From Pseudomonadota bacterium (lineage in GTDB: Bacteria; Pseudomonadota; Gammaproteobacteria; Burkholderiales; Burkholderiaceae_F), in NCBI GenBank assembly GCA_021842465.1, contig JAKBZN010000007.1, forward strand, positions 1 through 64,000: a stretch of 64,000 bases of DNA, read 5' to 3'. Position numbers and translations under genes: made by a program. The notes under the pieces are model-generated. The model searched no databases. It was not told where the DNA came from and saw only the letters and a program-made list of their open reading frames with translations. Of the stretch, positions 37,295 to 45,075 are shown piece after piece (within the stretch, counting starts at the first letter, position 1; the number at the start of each line of letters is the position of its first letter).

Positions 37295-37315
37295 CTGGCG
37301 GAGACGGAGGGATTC
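37295..37315. repeat. att-like direct repeat distal to tRNA-Ser
   Basis: CTGGCGGAGACGGAGGGATTC, perfect 21/21 copy of 44981..45001, which overlaps the tRNA-Ser 3' end. Confidence 0.88.
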
Positions 37316-37671: not shown

Positions 37672-38268
37672 ATGACACAAGCCAAGACCCAGACCACCCG
37701 CTGCGCAATCTGCGGCGAATCCACCCCGGACCATCTCATCGTCCAATACGGCTCCCAGGAACACGGATCCCGGGAAGTCTGCACCCGATGCATGAACGCC
37801 GACATGGCCGAACGCTGCGGACTCGATTTCGAACACGTCGAATTGGAGCCCGTGACGATGACCGACTGTTCCGGGAAATCGCATGAATTCCATTTCGCCA
37901 CGCATTTGCTCGGCGGCATGATGACGATCGACGCGTTCGAACTGCACGATGGCACCCCGTGCGGCCACCAGTTCCAGGTCATCGGTTCCCCGGACGACGA
38001 GCCGTTCGACCTGATGGCCCAGTTGATCGCGCGGATTCGGCGCGCCCTTTCCGTTTCGCATCTCTCCGAAGATCCGCGCCACGGGCTGCAGATCGCCGGG
38101 CAGAAGGTCTGCGGCCAAATCACCTGCGATCTCGATGACGACGCCGTGGGGCCGGCCGTCGTCATCGATGGCCGGGAGATCTCCTGGGAGGAGTTCGGCC
38201 GCATGCTGGGTACGTTCGAGGGCTTCCACTTCCGGTTGGAAATCGTCGACCGGAGCGAAGCGCCTTGA
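37672..38268 (+). CDS. Uncharacterised protein with paired CxxC (putative zinc-binding)
   Basis: MTQAKTQTTRCAICGESTPDHLIVQYGSQEHGSREVCTRCMNADMAERC; stop overlaps TTG start of SNF2 gene. Confidence 0.7.
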   Translation: MTQAKTQTTRCAICGESTPDHLIVQYGSQEHGSREVCTRCMNADMAERCGLDFEHVELEPVTMTDCSGKSHEFHFATHLLGGMMTIDAFELHDGTPCGHQFQVIGSPDDEPFDLMAQLIARIRRALSVSHLSEDPRHGLQIAGQKVCGQITCDLDDDAVGPAVVIDGREISWEEFGRMLGTFEGFHFRLEIVDRSEAP

Positions 38269-41045
38269 ACGAATCGCCGCAAACGCGGATCGCGCCGCGG
38301 GTTACGCCCCACGGACACCTGCTGATCGAACGCGACCCCAAGGCGCCAGCGCTGCCGGAGGACCTCGCGCGGCGCATTGACGACGCGTTTGCCCAAGGAA
38401 CCGGATTCGGCCTGCTGCAGCTTGCCGCAAGCGAAACCGCCGCCGTCCCCGCTGCCTTCGGCTTCTTCCGGCAATTCGCACTGCGCTATGTCTATGCGCT
38501 CTGCGCGGTGCCGGACGGCGCGCGGGTGGGCGCCGACCACCCGGCGATCGAACTTCACGACGCCGAGATCGGCGAAGCGATCCTTGCCGCGCCGCTCATC
38601 GCCGGCTCCGAATACATCACCCCAGACGCGCTCCGGACCTGGTGGGCCGAGATCGCCGAGGCCGCCCGCGCCGAAATGCGCGCGCAGGACTGCAGCATCG
38701 AAGCCTTCCTGCACGCCCGCAACCCGGTCTGGAACAGCGTCGGCCGCATCCATTTCAATCTCGCCCCCAATCGCAGGGGCAGCAAGGGCGGCAACGGCGC
38801 TGATGGCATCGATGCCGAACCCTTCGCGTTCGTCGTCACCTATACCCCCAAGCTGCTGGCGCAAGGGCGGCCACAGCACGTGCCGCTGGGCCAGGCCTTG
38901 CAGGCGGCCGCCGGAGCCCGGCAACGGGAGCAATTGCTGTCGCTGCTCGCGCCCGTGCAGCGGGCCGGCGAGTCCTGCGACTGGGTCAAGGCGCTGCAGG
39001 AGTCCGGAGACCTCTATCGGCCGACGCTCTGGAGCGCGGCGCAGGCCTACCGGATGCTGCAGGACAGCCCCCAACTGGAGCGCGCCGGCGTGATCGTCCG
39101 CCTGCACGGCCTCTGGAACGGCCCCAAGCCGCCCCGCCCCAAGGTTTCCGCCACGGTCGGGAACCGCGCTCCTTCTGGACTGGGACGCGACGCCCTGCTC
39201 GACTTCCAGGTCGGCATGACGCTCGAAGGCGAGCCGCTCAGCGGCGAGGAAATCCGCAGCCTTCTGTCCGGCACGGAGAGCCTGGTCTGGCTGCGCGGCC
39301 AGTGGGTCGAGGTGGATCGGGATCGGCTCGCTTCGCTGCTCGAGCGCTTCTCCCGGATCGAAGCACTGGCCTCCCGCAGCGGCATCGGGTTCTTCGAGGC
39401 CTCCCGCATGCTCGCCGACGCCGGAATCGGCGGGTCGGAACTGGCGGCCGACGCGGAGGATGCCGGCTGGATCGGCGTCGAAGCGGGGCCCTGGCTTGCA
39501 CAACGCCTGGCCGAACTGCGCGGCACGGACGGGCAGGCCGCCGCCCCCTATGCACCCCCGCCGGGTCTCGCCGCCGAACTGCGGCCGTACCAGGCGGCGG
39601 GCGTCCGGTGGCTGCAGCTGCTCGCCCAGCTCGGCCTGGGCGCCTGTCTCGCCGACGACATGGGCCTGGGGAAGACGCTGCAGGTCATCGCCCTCCTCCT
39701 GCACGGCAAATCCGAACGCCGCAAGCCGCGCCGCATGACGAGGGGAACCACCGCGACCCGTGCGACGCTGCTCGTCGTTCCGGCCTCGCTCATCGCCAAC
39801 TGGGTCGCGGAATTCCGACGATTCGCGCCCAGCCTGCGCATCCTCGTCGCACACCCCTCTGCCACCCCCGCCGCCGAGATCCGCGCCCTCGACCAAGCGG
39901 GAGTCGGAGCCTGCGACGCGGTGATCACGAGTTACGGCACGCTCGCGCGATCCCCCAACCTGCAGGGCATCACCTGGTTTGCGATCGTCGTGGACGAGGC
40001 CCAGGCGATCAAGAATCCCGCGACGAAGCAGGCGCGCGCCGTCAAGGCCGTATCGGCCCCCGTGCGGATTGCGCTGACCGGGACCCCGGTCGAGAACCGG
40101 CTCGGCGACCTGTGGTCGATCTTCGACTTCACCAATCCGGGCCTGCTCGGGACTGCGCGGGAGTTCGCGGAATTCACCAACCGGCTGGCACGACGGGACG
40201 TCAACCCCTACGGTCCGCTGCGCACGCTTGTCCGTCCCTATATCCTGCGGCGCATGAAGACCGACCGCGCAATCATTGCCGATCTGCCGGACAAGACGGA
40301 AATGGTCGCCTACTGCCCGCTCACAAAGCCGCAGGCTGCGCTCTACCAGCAGGCAGTCGATGCACTCACTTCGGATCTCCAAACGACGCAAGGCAACGCC
40401 CGGCGCGGGCTGATCCTCGCCTACCTCACCCGGTTCAAGCAGATCTGCAATCACCCCCGGCACTGGATCGGCGGCGCGGATTGGGCGGCGGACGAGAGCG
40501 GCAAGTTCGCGCGGCTTTCGGAAATCTGCGAGACGATCCGCGAGAAACAGGAAAAGGTCCTCGTGTTCACGCAGTATCAGGAGGCCACCGCACCGCTTGC
40601 GGCGTTCCTCGGGGAGATCTTCGAGCGACCCGCCCTGGTTCTTCACGGCAAGACGCCGGTCAAAGCGCGGCAGGAACTCGTCGCCCGCTTCCAGGAGGAC
40701 GATCTCGTCCACGCCTTCGTGATCTCGCTGCGCGCGGGCGGCGTCGGCCTCAACCTGACCGCCGCATCGCACGTCGTGCACTTCGATCGGTGGTGGAACC
40801 CCGCCGTGGAGAACCAAGCCACGGATCGGGCATACCGCATCGGGCAAAAGCGCAACGTCCTCGTCCACAAGCTGGTCTGCCGGGGAACCGTCGAGGAGCG
40901 GATCGACCGGATGATCGCCGAGAAGACCGCGCTCGCCTCCGACCTGCTCGACTCGCGCGACGAAATCAAGCTCACCGAACTCTCCAACGCGGAACTGCTG
41001 GATCTGGTCAAGCTCGACCTGCGCTCCGCAGCGGCGGAGGCATAG
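38265..41045 (+). CDS. SNF2-family helicase/ATPase with SNF2-associated N-terminal domain
   Basis: 926 aa; CLADDMGLGKTLQVIALLLHGK, VVDEAQAIKNPATKQARAVKAV, VFTQYQEATAPLAAFLGE, SLRAGGVGLNLTAASHVVHFDRWWNPAVENQATDRAYRIGQ. Confidence 0.93.
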   Translation: MNESPQTRIAPRVTPHGHLLIERDPKAPALPEDLARRIDDAFAQGTGFGLLQLAASETAAVPAAFGFFRQFALRYVYALCAVPDGARVGADHPAIELHDAEIGEAILAAPLIAGSEYITPDALRTWWAEIAEAARAEMRAQDCSIEAFLHARNPVWNSVGRIHFNLAPNRRGSKGGNGADGIDAEPFAFVVTYTPKLLAQGRPQHVPLGQALQAAAGARQREQLLSLLAPVQRAGESCDWVKALQESGDLYRPTLWSAAQAYRMLQDSPQLERAGVIVRLHGLWNGPKPPRPKVSATVGNRAPSGLGRDALLDFQVGMTLEGEPLSGEEIRSLLSGTESLVWLRGQWVEVDRDRLASLLERFSRIEALASRSGIGFFEASRMLADAGIGGSELAADAEDAGWIGVEAGPWLAQRLAELRGTDGQAAAPYAPPPGLAAELRPYQAAGVRWLQLLAQLGLGACLADDMGLGKTLQVIALLLHGKSERRKPRRMTRGTTATRATLLVVPASLIANWVAEFRRFAPSLRILVAHPSATPAAEIRALDQAGVGACDAVITSYGTLARSPNLQGITWFAIVVDEAQAIKNPATKQARAVKAVSAPVRIALTGTPVENRLGDLWSIFDFTNPGLLGTAREFAEFTNRLARRDVNPYGPLRTLVRPYILRRMKTDRAIIADLPDKTEMVAYCPLTKPQAALYQQAVDALTSDLQTTQGNARRGLILAYLTRFKQICNHPRHWIGGADWAADESGKFARLSEICETIREKQEKVLVFTQYQEATAPLAAFLGEIFERPALVLHGKTPVKARQELVARFQEDDLVHAFVISLRAGGVGLNLTAASHVVHFDRWWNPAVENQATDRAYRIGQKRNVLVHKLVCRGTVEERIDRMIAEKTALASDLLDSRDEIKLTELSNAELLDLVKLDLRSAAAEA

Positions 41046-42041
41046 ATGCGCCGGCGTTCCTGGTCTTCGTTTCCACCCTATGTACCCGTGGCGGAACGTC
41101 GCCGCAAGGCGGAGACCGCGGCGAAGAAGCTCGCCGCCAAAGGGGAGGCGCTGGAGCCGGTGCAGATTTCCGGCGTGGCCATCGCCCGGACGTTCTGGGG
41201 GCGGTCCTGGCTCGCCAACCTCGACCGGTATGCCGACTTCGCCAATCGCCTGCCGCGCGGCCGCAGCTATGTCCGCAGCGGCGCCGTGCTCGACCTCCGG
41301 ATCGAGAAACGGATCGTCCGCGCGAGGGTGCAGGGCAGCTCGCTCTACACGGTGACAATCGAAATCGATGCGCTGGCCGCCGCGCGCTGGCAGCAAATCC
41401 GCAAGGAGTGCGCCGGGGCGATCGACACCGTGGTGGAATTGCTCGCGGGCAAGCTCTCGCAGTCGGTGATGGCCCTCATGACCGACCCGGGGCGTGGGCT
41501 TTTTCCGAACAACCGGGAAATCCGCGTGCAATGCAGTTGCCCGGACATCGCCCAACTGTGCAAGCACGCCATCGCCGCCCTCTGCGGTGTCGGCAACCGC
41601 CTGGACAGCAAGCCGGAGCTGCTATTTCTGCTCCGCGGAGTCGATCACGCGGACCTGATCGACGAAGCGGTGCAAAACGCTGGGAAGATCGGCGAAGCCG
41701 CATCTGTCGCGCTCTCGAACCGCGACCTGGAGGAGATCTTCGGATTTCAGGTCGCCGATCCTACCGAGCCGATCGAGATCGCCGCGACGGTCAAGACTCC
41801 GCGCAAGGCGGCCAGAAAATCCCCCGCGAAGAAATCCACGACAACGGCAAGCCGAACTTCCGCCAAGACTGGTGCCAAGTCGGCGGCAACGCGATCCGTG
41901 GCGATGAAAAATTCGCGCGCCGTGCCGCGAAAAGCGTCAACAGGTACGAAAACCTCTGCCCGGTCGGCGGCCGGAAAGCGAGCCGCGCCGAAATCGCCCA
42001 AAACCACCCCAGTGAAAAAGGGCAAAGCGAGCCGGAAATGA
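41046..42041 (+). CDS. SWIM zinc-finger protein with Lys/Ala/Ser/Thr-rich C-terminal tail
   Basis: SWIM CSCPDIAQLCKH; tail KTPRKAARKSPAKKSTTTASRTSAKTGAKSAATRS...PVKKGKASRK; ORF starts directly after SNF2 stop. Confidence 0.88.
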   Translation: MRRRSWSSFPPYVPVAERRRKAETAAKKLAAKGEALEPVQISGVAIARTFWGRSWLANLDRYADFANRLPRGRSYVRSGAVLDLRIEKRIVRARVQGSSLYTVTIEIDALAAARWQQIRKECAGAIDTVVELLAGKLSQSVMALMTDPGRGLFPNNREIRVQCSCPDIAQLCKHAIAALCGVGNRLDSKPELLFLLRGVDHADLIDEAVQNAGKIGEAASVALSNRDLEEIFGFQVADPTEPIEIAATVKTPRKAARKSPAKKSTTTASRTSAKTGAKSAATRSVAMKNSRAVPRKASTGTKTSARSAAGKRAAPKSPKTTPVKKGKASRK

Positions 42042-42214: not shown

Positions 42215-42541
42215 GTGAGCTACGAGATTTCGTATTTCCACGAGCGCGTTCTTGCCGAGATCGAGTCTTGGCCCATTGACGTCCTTGCGGACTATGCCCG
42301 TCTGGTCGAACTCCTGATCGAACACGGCCCGAATCTTCGTCTTCCCCATTCGCGGGCGCTTGGCGAAGGGCTCTTTGAGTTGCGACCGCGCGGGCATTCT
42401 GGCATCGGTCGCGCGTTCTACTGTTTTCTCGTTGGCAAGCGTGTAGTGGTCGTGCATGCCTTCGTCAAGAAAGCCCAACAGACTCCCGACCGAGAGTTGA
42501 AGTTGGCGCGCAAACGCGCCAAGGAGATACGCCATGACTGA
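42215..42541 (+). CDS. HigB/RelE-type toxin (Gp49-like)
   Basis: 108 aa; LIEHGPNLRLPHSRALGEGLFELRPRGHSGIGRAFYCFLVGKRVVVVHAFVKKAQQTPDRELKLARKR. Confidence 0.9.
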   Translation: MSYEISYFHERVLAEIESWPIDVLADYARLVELLIEHGPNLRLPHSRALGEGLFELRPRGHSGIGRAFYCFLVGKRVVVVHAFVKKAQQTPDRELKLARKRAKEIRHD

Positions 42542-42851
42542 CATCAAATTCAAACCTGTCCGCCACGACCACAAGGCTTTCGTTGAAAAGGCATCGAAGC
42601 GCAAAGGCTTCGTCGATGCTTACGATGCGCTCGCGCTCGAATACCAGTTGGCAAACCAAATGCTCAAGGCCCGTTCCCGCGCCGGCCTCACTCAGGACGC
42701 GGTTGCCGAGCGCATGGGCACCACCAAGAGCGCGGTCTCCCGCCTAGAGTCCGCGGCCAAACATGCTCCGTCGATCGCCACCCTCAAGCGTTATGCCAGT
42801 GCGGTCGGCTGCGAGCTTCAGGTGCGGCTCGTGCCTCAGAAGGTCGCGTGA
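42534..42851 (+). CDS. HigA-type XRE antitoxin
   Basis: ALEYQLANQMLKARSRAGLTQDAVAERMGTTKSAVSRLESAAKHAPSIATLKRYASAVG; overlaps toxin ORF. Confidence 0.9.
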   Translation: MTDIKFKPVRHDHKAFVEKASKRKGFVDAYDALALEYQLANQMLKARSRAGLTQDAVAERMGTTKSAVSRLESAAKHAPSIATLKRYASAVGCELQVRLVPQKVA

Positions 42852-42877: not shown

Positions 42878-43063
42878 TCATTGCAGGTAGCGTCGGCCCA
42901 TACGCGGAAAACGCCGCAGGTTGAGGATCACCGTGTCCTGTAGCGCCGCCAGCAGAGCGTCGTAGGTGAGCGGCGCTCCGGCTTCCCGAAGACAGGCGTC
43001 GATGGATTCCAGCCGTTCCAGGAAGCTCGCGGTAAGTTCAACCCGGTACGCCGGCTCAGCCAC
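42878..43063 (-). pseudogene. Truncated RelE/ParE-type toxin (N-terminal 61 aa)
   Basis: MAEPAYRVELTASFLERLESIDACLRE...VILNLRRFPRMGRRYLQ* stops where ParE-like proteins normally continue; overlaps upstream antitoxin. Confidence 0.65.
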
Positions 43064-43382
43064 GCTTGGCGACCCGGGCGGGCGATTTCCTCGCGGCGGC
43101 GCGCCGCTTCTGGAGGGCGGCGATGGCCGCGCCCGCCTCCTGCGTGCGGCCCGCTGCGACGTCGGCCAGGCCGCGGCGCGCGTCGTCGATCAACAGCAGG
43201 TGGATGCGCTCGCGCTCCAGGCGGTGGTAATAGTCGAGGCGATCGGAATCGATCAGCGCGACGTAGCTCTCGCCGTTCTTGGTGATGATCTTCTCGGCAC
43301 CGGCCTTCACCTGCTCGGCGAGCTCGGACAGGTTGGCGCGGGCCTGGGTGAAGGGCACGATGTCGCCGACGGTGAAACCCAT
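43056..43382 (-). CDS. Phd/YefM-type antitoxin
   Basis: VGDIVPFTQARANLSELAEQVKAGAEKIITKNGESYVALIDSDRLDYYHRLE. Confidence 0.85.
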   Translation of the reverse strand: MGFTVGDIVPFTQARANLSELAEQVKAGAEKIITKNGESYVALIDSDRLDYYHRLERERIHLLLIDDARRGLADVAAGRTQEAGAAIAALQKRRAAARKSPARVAKRG

Positions 43383-43620
43383 GGCTGGACCCCCGTATAA
43401 CGTTACGGAATTCTGTGCAGAATACGGCAGATGCAAAGGCGTCGAAAGTGACCGTCTCCGTCGCGCGGCGCGTGCTCCCAGCGCTCAGGGTGCCCGACCC
43501 CGCTGGATCAACAAACCGTTTCTTGACGCGGACACTCTCGGCTTTTCGTAAGCGCAGACGCCGCCGCGGAGCAATAGGTCCGGGGCAAGACCGTTGATCA
43601 GACTGTCAGCGCGTGCTCGG

Positions 43621-44115
43621 TCATAGCTTCATCGCCTCACGCAGGTCGGCCACCGTCACCATCAATGTCATGGCATCGAGCGGCGATTCGTCAAGGCCGA
43701 GACCGAGGTAGAAGGTCTTGGCCTCTTCGGACAGGGCGTGCACGACCATGCCGCGGATGCCGATGGCGTCGGCCGCATGGATCACGCGCAGCGCTGCGTC
43801 CTGGAAGAGCGCACGGCCGAGCCCCTGCCGGTGATGGCTTGTCGCCACGGCCAGCCGGCCGAGCACGACGACCGGGACCGGATCGGGCATGTTGCGGCGG
43901 AAGCGGCCGGGCGCGGCGGCTGGGGCTACAGCGCTAGACGCGAGAGCGTAGTAGCCGACGACCTTGCGGTCTTCGCACGCGACGAACGTGCGCGAGGCGC
44001 CGCTGATCTGGTTCGCGGCCGCGCGGCGTTCGAGCCAGCTGTTGAGCGACGCCACCCCGCAGTCGAAGCCGGCGATATCGTGGTCGGGGTTGAGCGGTTC
44101 CGGAGCGCGCAGCAT
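43621..44115 (-). CDS. GNAT-family toxin (TacT-like)
   Basis: LNPDHDIAGFDCGVASLNSWLERRAAANQISGASRTFVACEDRKVVGYYALASSAV...VVLGRLAVATSHHRQGLGRALFQDAALR. Confidence 0.88.
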   Translation of the reverse strand: MLRAPEPLNPDHDIAGFDCGVASLNSWLERRAAANQISGASRTFVACEDRKVVGYYALASSAVAPAAAPGRFRRNMPDPVPVVVLGRLAVATSHHRQGLGRALFQDAALRVIHAADAIGIRGMVVHALSEEAKTFYLGLGLDESPLDAMTLMVTVADLREAMKL

Positions 44116-44120
44116 CCGGT

Positions 44121-44411
44121 TCAGGCCGTCTTCCAGGGCGCCTTGCTGCGCATCGTCCGCTGCAGCCGTTCATTGGGTTGGGCCGGACGGTCGAGCCGCT
44201 TCAAGAATTCACCATAGGCCTCGGGGCTGACCACCATCAGGGCGCGGTCCAGCAGCGTCTCTTCCGCTGCGCGGCGTGCAGCCTCCAGGATGAAATCCGT
44301 GCGCGTCTTGCCCGCCGACTCCGCCGCGCGGTCGATCAGGTTGCGCTCGGCCGGCGGGATGCGCAGGTTGAGCGTGTCCCGGGGCGCCTTCGTCGTGCTC
44401 GCAGTCGTCAT
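44121..44411 (-). CDS. DUF1778 antitoxin (TacA-like RHH)
   Basis: DTLNLRIPPAERNLIDRAAESAGKTRTDFILEAARRAAEETLLDRALMVVSPEAYGEFL. Confidence 0.88.
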   Translation of the reverse strand: MTTASTTKAPRDTLNLRIPPAERNLIDRAAESAGKTRTDFILEAARRAAEETLLDRALMVVSPEAYGEFLKRLDRPAQPNERLQRTMRSKAPWKTA

Positions 44412-44449
44412 GGCTTGTCCTCTGCAATCTGGCGCCACGATATCACATC

Positions 44450-44468
44450 GTAACGACAAAGTCATTAC
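44450..44468. promoter_or_regulatory. Candidate operator upstream of TacA-like antitoxin
   Basis: GTAACGAC-aaa-GTCATTAC inverted repeat (one mismatch). Confidence 0.35.
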
Positions 44469-44726: not shown

Positions 44727-44822
44727 TCAGTCGGTGCGAACATACAGACCTCCACCATCGGTGAGCTTGTAGGGTTTCTCGCGTGGCTTCGCCTGTTCCA
44801 CCATCCGTGCCGTGAGAGACAT
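44727..44822 (-). pseudogene. N-terminal stub of a P4-type tyrosine integrase (DUF4102 region)
   Basis: MSLTARMVEQAKPREKPYKLTDGGGLYVRTD*; matches the typical start of integrases of this class, then stops; 159 nt from tRNA 3' end, same direction. Confidence 0.75.
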
Positions 44823-44981
44823 GGTATCGGCCTCCTGCCATACCATGTTCGTACCATATTCTGCGCCGGGTTGGCGTTGGTAGTCGCTGGCGGGCTTTGG
44901 CGGACTATGGTACGCCCCCAGAGAGAAAAAGCCCGGCTCCTTGGCGGGGCCGGCTTCTTTTGGCACTGTTTGGCGTAACGC

Positions 44982-45075
44982 TGGCGGAGACGGAGGGATT
45001 CGAACCCTCGATGCGAGTTTTTGCCCGCATGCTCCCTTAGCAGGGGAGTGCCTTCGACCTCTCGGCCACGTCTCC
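44982..45075 (-). tRNA. tRNA-Ser(GCT)
   Basis: Reverse complement GGAGACGTGGCCGAGAGGTCGAAGGCACTCCCCTGCTAAGGGAGCATGCGGGCAAAAACTCGCATCGAGGGTTCGAATCCCTCCGTCTCCGCCA; 7-bp acceptor stem, long variable arm, encoded CCA. Confidence 0.96.

Follow-up and report, generated by a model that had tools for sequence, protein, structure and literature searches.

A probable accessory SNF2-SWIM gene pair with an optional partner gene in a tRNA-Ser island

Which genes of a tightly packed cluster belong together, and what might they do? This question is raised by three co-directional genes, here called A, B and C, at 37672-42041 of a 64,000-nucleotide stretch of DNA (the window; positions 1 to 64,000 of contig JAKBZN010000007.1, assembly GCA_021842465.1, from a Pseudomonadota bacterium of the Burkholderiaceae_F). 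An earlier note on this DNA had read them as a coupled triad, forming an accessory and possibly defence-like system inside a tRNA-bounded island with toxin-antitoxin modules. Our analysis favours, on balance, an accessory SNF2-SWIM translocase pair, B-C, in a tRNA-Ser island, with A as an optional companion. The three genes are as follows.

37672-38268, plus strand: gene A, ATG start, 198 aa, DUF7685-DUF7686-DUF7713, with CxxC at residues 11-14 and 37-40; optional passenger.
38265-41045, plus strand: gene B, TTG start, 926 aa, SNF2-family ATPase with DUF3670, SNF2-rel_dom and Helicase_C.
41046-42041, plus strand: gene C, SWIM zinc-finger protein, 331 aa.

The gene arrangement is as the earlier note described it: in a TTGA at the A/B junction the start of B overlaps the TGA stop of A, and the ATG of C directly abuts the TAG stop of B. 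A candidate ribosome-binding GGAG for B sits within the 3' end of A. In a Pfam search, A was covered end to end by its three domains, while B matched SNF2-rel_dom (PF00176, E 2.9e-61) and, ahead of the motor, DUF3670 (PF12419, 91.3 bits); this search showed neither a nuclease nor any other effector domain in A, B or C. The motor motifs of B are intact (GLGKT at 467, DEAQ at 577, TGTP at 605, AGGVGLN at 824 and QATDRAYRIGQ at 851). The SWIM domain of C (PF04434) scored 19.9 bits, barely above the cut-off of 19.6, and its CxCx6CxH motif is intact at residues 163-174, formed by C163, C165, C172 and H174. The locus thus has the intact motor motifs, the SWIM CxCxnCxH in a linked protein and the adjacency of motor and SWIM genes that mark a SWIM-associated SNF2 pair. 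The C-terminal tail of C is basic and of low complexity, with 31% K+R and no D or E across its last 80 residues, and the tails of the C homologues measured contain 18-32% K+R; this composition would fit nucleic-acid binding.

We then considered how firmly B and C are linked. At 25 of 25 loci, which include plasmids, genome contigs and IMG/VR contigs, C comes after B on the same strand, separated from it by -10 to 58 nt, and the distances among the B homologues correlate with those among the C homologues (r 0.74, Mantel p 0.001). B-like proteins were found in 149 plasmid records, 51 of them conjugative, and C-like proteins in 108, of which 54 are conjugative; a search of phages with C gave one match, in a Wolbachia phage. 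The IMG/VR contigs L076-L080, classed as viral, also contain the pair, and so does plasmid pHG1 of Cupriavidus necator H16 (H16_RS32355 and H16_RS32350). Within the order, 20 of 300 genomes encode DUF3670 SNF2 proteins and 5 of 399 have DUF7686 (1 of 274 in the class), which bears out the proposed accessory status. The functional link between SNF2 and SWIM is likewise supported, and the association is already in the literature, in which SWIM-associated SWI2/SNF2 ATPases are named as a group and noted in mobile systems (PMC5512222). The pair is therefore of an already known type, frequent on bacterial plasmids.

Further support came from relatives of the window genome (G000). Its congener G002 carries homologues of B and C (85% and 81% identical, respectively) at ~1.355 Mb, in open frames and without A, at a locus other than that of G000; the G002 tRNA-lysC region is at 2.26 Mb. 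A C-like match was present in 28 genomes of the family, i.e. 26 beyond G000 and G002, and in these 26 nearly all such matches lie in frames of ~1,190-1,410 aa, the exception being a 184-aa frame in G009. In G013 (contig C24), G015 (C1) and G018 (C71), the B and C searches returned the same contig, strand and frame length, which places the motor and the SWIM region in a single frame in these genomes, unlike the two-gene form in G000 and G002. The ~1,200-1,400-aa frames of the 26 genomes would fit a fused SWIM-SNF2 protein, and this single-frame architecture gives indirect support for a physical complex of B and C in the two-gene form. Taken as an accessory unit to which A is optional, B-C is very probably correctly delimited.

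Gene A behaves differently, and the triad as a coupled unit did not survive comparison. Among the 21 loci with B, A lies upstream of B only in the window, being absent from this position at all other B homologues checked, and G002 keeps B-C without A. Conversely, no B or C was found near A homologues on the stretches examined, except in L081 (Paraburkholderia sp. PGU19, plasmid), where A ends ~2.8 kb from C on the opposite strand. The scan of genome contigs gave five A relatives, none with B or C on the examined stretch. A matched 15 plasmid records and nothing among phage records and viral contigs. The A-B-C triad as a conserved system was rejected, since A occurs elsewhere without B-C neighbours and B-C without A.

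We also dropped the view that only the window genome has known the A-B junction, because G002 holds a remnant of the 3' end of A. The 19 bp ahead of the B start in G002 are identical to those of the window and encode the last residues of A; several members of the A family end in DRS(D/E)E. Because these bases spell the terminal residues of A, we think that A was probably once present in G002 and then deleted, with B-C retained. Alternatively, the possible ribosome-binding GGAG for B within the same bases could have conserved them. The adjacency of A to B is in either case seen in the window, plus the 19-bp remnant in one congener, and not in several independent lineages. A would then be a zinc-motif protein of a separate, largely plasmid-borne family, which became translationally coupled ahead of B in an ancestor of the window species and its congener and is presumably dispensable to B-C. 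The coupling of A to B is thus optional and belongs to this lineage.

Two side observations concern the A family. Members of one unnamed family (MDxxQKxxLxDExxRAQPH...) are repeatedly encoded ahead of A (L013:9642-9944, L014:7389-7814, L044:8519-8944 and L052:2829-3305). At L014:9971-10510 an A homologue is seemingly frameshifted, its 179-aa frame diverging from the family at the end; the source is a metagenome-assembled genome, and an assembly error is possible.

The plasmid loci also suggest another view of A, namely that it is a genuine but loosely linked partner, and that A, UPF0149, UPF0158 and SNF2-SWIM form one modular plasmid set shuffled between loci. Indeed, UPF0149 adjoins A in L011 (6-458) and L014 (9252-9794) and B in L081 (16080-17096) and L089 (5773-6762), and UPF0158 adjoins A in L043 and L045 and comes after C in L082. 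Of the 15 plasmids with A, at least 3 encode a close B as well, the two lying ~4 kb apart in NZ_AP023182, and G002 appears once to have had A. However, several of the loci are closely related to one another (L081 to L089 and L011 to L014), leaving few independent cases; the co-residence of A and B is confounded, as large plasmids of the same genera hold many accessory genes; and the majority of A loci have neither B nor UPF0149 or UPF0158 nearby. No UPF0149 was found in the window's own genome. We thus regard such a set as improbable, and the UPF0149/UPF0158 co-neighbourhood as a lead only. The more elaborate proposal that DUF7685-7686-7713, UPF0149, UPF0158 and SNF2-SWIM all belong to a single undescribed mobile-element system with shuffled parts, which would protect or maintain large plasmids and islands with A as a zinc-binding adaptor for the translocase, seems more doubtful still.

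We next turn to the setting of the pair, for which the earlier note had claimed a tRNA-bounded island. The island is real, but it is bounded by one tRNA and, on the other side, by a 21-bp repeat of the 3' end of that tRNA, and its content varies in relatives. The elements at its boundaries are as follows.

37295-37315, plus strand: left boundary, attachment-site-like repeat that matches the tRNA-Ser 3' end perfectly over 21 bp.
44727-44816, minus strand: candidate tyrosine integrase remnant, from the N-terminal arm-binding domain; a weak match (PF13356, E 0.018, 15.6 bits, under the cut-off).
44982-45075, minus strand: tRNA-Ser (GCT), whose 3' end supplies the right boundary repeat (44981-45001).

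Within the 64-kb window the 21-mer CTGGCGGAGACGGAGGGATTC is present at 37295 and 44981 only, and tRNA-Ser(GCT) is the sole tRNA. The boundary repeat has a BLAST E-value of 3.6e-7 in 8.2 kb, and chance origin is therefore very unlikely. No intact integrase was found in the island, just the weak N-terminal remnant beside the tRNA, whose putative reading frame terminates in a stop. Synteny with the congeners G002 and G003 extends up to ~37279 and resumes around the tRNA, while the DNA between the shared flanks differs, measuring ~5.3 kb in G002 and ~1.05 kb in G003. The G002 insert contains an AbiEi/AbiEii pair (L030:12816-14487) and, judged by eye from its open reading frames, an IS66-type transposase; the short stretch in G003 holds, again by eye, a methyltransferase-like gene, and G001 has different DNA left of the tRNA. 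No exact copy of the left repeat was found in G001, G002 or G003. The tRNA-Ser 3' end is thus a variable hotspot in the genus, occupied by AbiEi/AbiEii in G002 where the window has its SNF2-SWIM island. The locus would be horizontally acquired cargo, brought in by a small element that inserted at the tRNA-Ser(GCT) 3' end and seems to have decayed.

The toxin-antitoxin modules that the earlier note had placed in the island are present, three in number, all outside the B-C pair.

42215-42851, plus strand: Gp49-like toxin and HTH antitoxin module.
42878-43436, minus strand: Phd/YefM antitoxin with ParE-like toxin.
43621-44465, minus strand: GNAT toxin and TacA-like antitoxin module.

The ParE-like toxin at 42878-43063 comprises 61 aa only and adjoins an intact Phd antitoxin; it is probably truncated or decayed.

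With three such modules in the island and A ahead of B in one genome only, the A-B coupling might be functionless and the whole set neutral cargo kept by its toxin-antitoxin neighbours. We consider this very unlikely, as B and C are 81-85% identical between G000 and G002 at different loci and in open frames, and as the B-C pair is conserved across many plasmids.

The same setting could instead suggest that B-C, alone or together with A, is a defence module against phages or plasmids, with C or A as the sensor of foreign nucleic acid and B as the translocase that blocks its replication or transcription. Known defence systems include SNF2 helicases, the B motor matches the PADLOC ZorD and DpdE models, C weakly matches the defence candidate PDC-S62, and the pair lies in a variable tRNA hotspot beside toxin-antitoxin modules, at the site held by AbiEi/AbiEii in G002. 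However, the ZorD and DpdE matches fall mainly over the SNF2 motor region that these proteins have in common with B and are far under the curated NCBIfam cut-offs (275.3 bits against 1500 and 33.9 bits against 500, respectively), and partner genes of Zorya or Dpd were not seen in the window region read. Membership of B in either system was rejected on these scores. The best NCBIfam model for B is instead the SCO1167/SCO6262 helicase (NF058637; 563.2 bits, residues 300-917), of which B is not a member either, at under half of the curated cut-off of 1200 bits. That the Pfam search showed no nuclease or effector domain in A, B or C also speaks against defence, and frequent presence on conjugative plasmids would be expected of mobile-element cargo of any kind.

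Genes around the pair were compared by PADLOC, using 101 neighbour proteins (seven genome-contig loci plus G002) and 101 control proteins mostly from the same genomes. Matches were scattered in neighbours and controls alike, with no excess beside the eight homologous pairs; the samples are small and uneven, genes were called by a simple custom script and G468 had no control stretch, so that a modest enrichment could be missed. Near the pair the matches were to single mads_3, mads_8, HerA and PDC models, and in the controls to a GajB/UvrD-type model; the four PDC-S62 matches near pairs are probably the SWIM proteins themselves. The tests made here thus gave no positive evidence for the defence role proposed for the set, and we judge that role unlikely.

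What, then, could the pair do? SNF2 proteins are double-stranded-DNA translocases. In a PDB sequence search the nearest solved structure to B was the Sulfolobus SNF2 core 1z63/1z6a (1z63, E 3.2e-120), while A and C gave no matches. The AlphaFold model of A (pLDDT 57.9, from five sequences) had no PDB fold match at E <= 0.001, and the fold of the C model (pLDDT 41) was not used. The SSO1653/SsoRad54 type of SWIM-associated SNF2 (Durr et al. 2005, as related in PMC5512222) resembles B-C in that a motor of the same class is linked to a SWIM domain, but differs in that the window has a DUF7685-7686-7713 gene coupled ahead of the pair. A second relative is suggested by domain content. The genome domain survey scored B. 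subtilis as positive for DUF3670; we take its DUF3670 protein to be YwqA, with YwqB presumably its partner. B shares with this SNF2 protein the DUF3670 before the motor, a likeness of domain content and not of direct alignment, whereas YwqA is a resident B. subtilis gene and the window pair is island cargo. YwqA was enriched alongside RNA polymerase in a PcrA pull-down (PMC3797733), and is listed as an RNA-polymerase interactor believed to backtrack the polymerase (PMC10804225, PMC7385302). Our literature search returned nothing on DUF3670, DUF7686, DUF7713 or PDC-S62.

The SNF2 translocase class of B, its 1z63 relative, the YwqA-RNA polymerase reports and the basic tail of C lead us to favour a two-subunit protein-clearing translocase. 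The working unit would be the two-gene operon B-C, in which B acts as an SNF2-type double-stranded-DNA translocase and C as a SWIM zinc-finger subunit that binds nucleic acid and has a basic tail, the two most likely forming one complex. C may target or clamp the motor on nucleic acid, and B, in translocating, would displace or back up bound proteins, with stalled RNA polymerase as the likeliest substrate. As a result, large plasmids or islands could tolerate transcription and replication blocks. We propose removal of proteins or RNA polymerase as the activity only tentatively, by analogy with YwqA.

Several points weigh against this account. RNA polymerase as the substrate is borrowed from YwqA/RapA by analogy. 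The correlated B and C distances are expected for any linked, co-inherited pair. The predicted structures of A (pLDDT 58) and C (pLDDT 41) are too poor to help. Finally, possible defence genes occur close to some B-C pairs, so that there is room for a role in conflict.

Bacterial plasmids widely carry SNF2-SWIM pairs, for which we found no established function. The operon in 25 of 25 loci, the single-frame architecture seen in relatives and a congener that has apparently lost A define which genes belong together for testing. Should the pair act in defence, it would count as a new defence pair; should it help mobile DNA to withstand blocks to transcription or replication, it would represent a new kind of plasmid fitness module.

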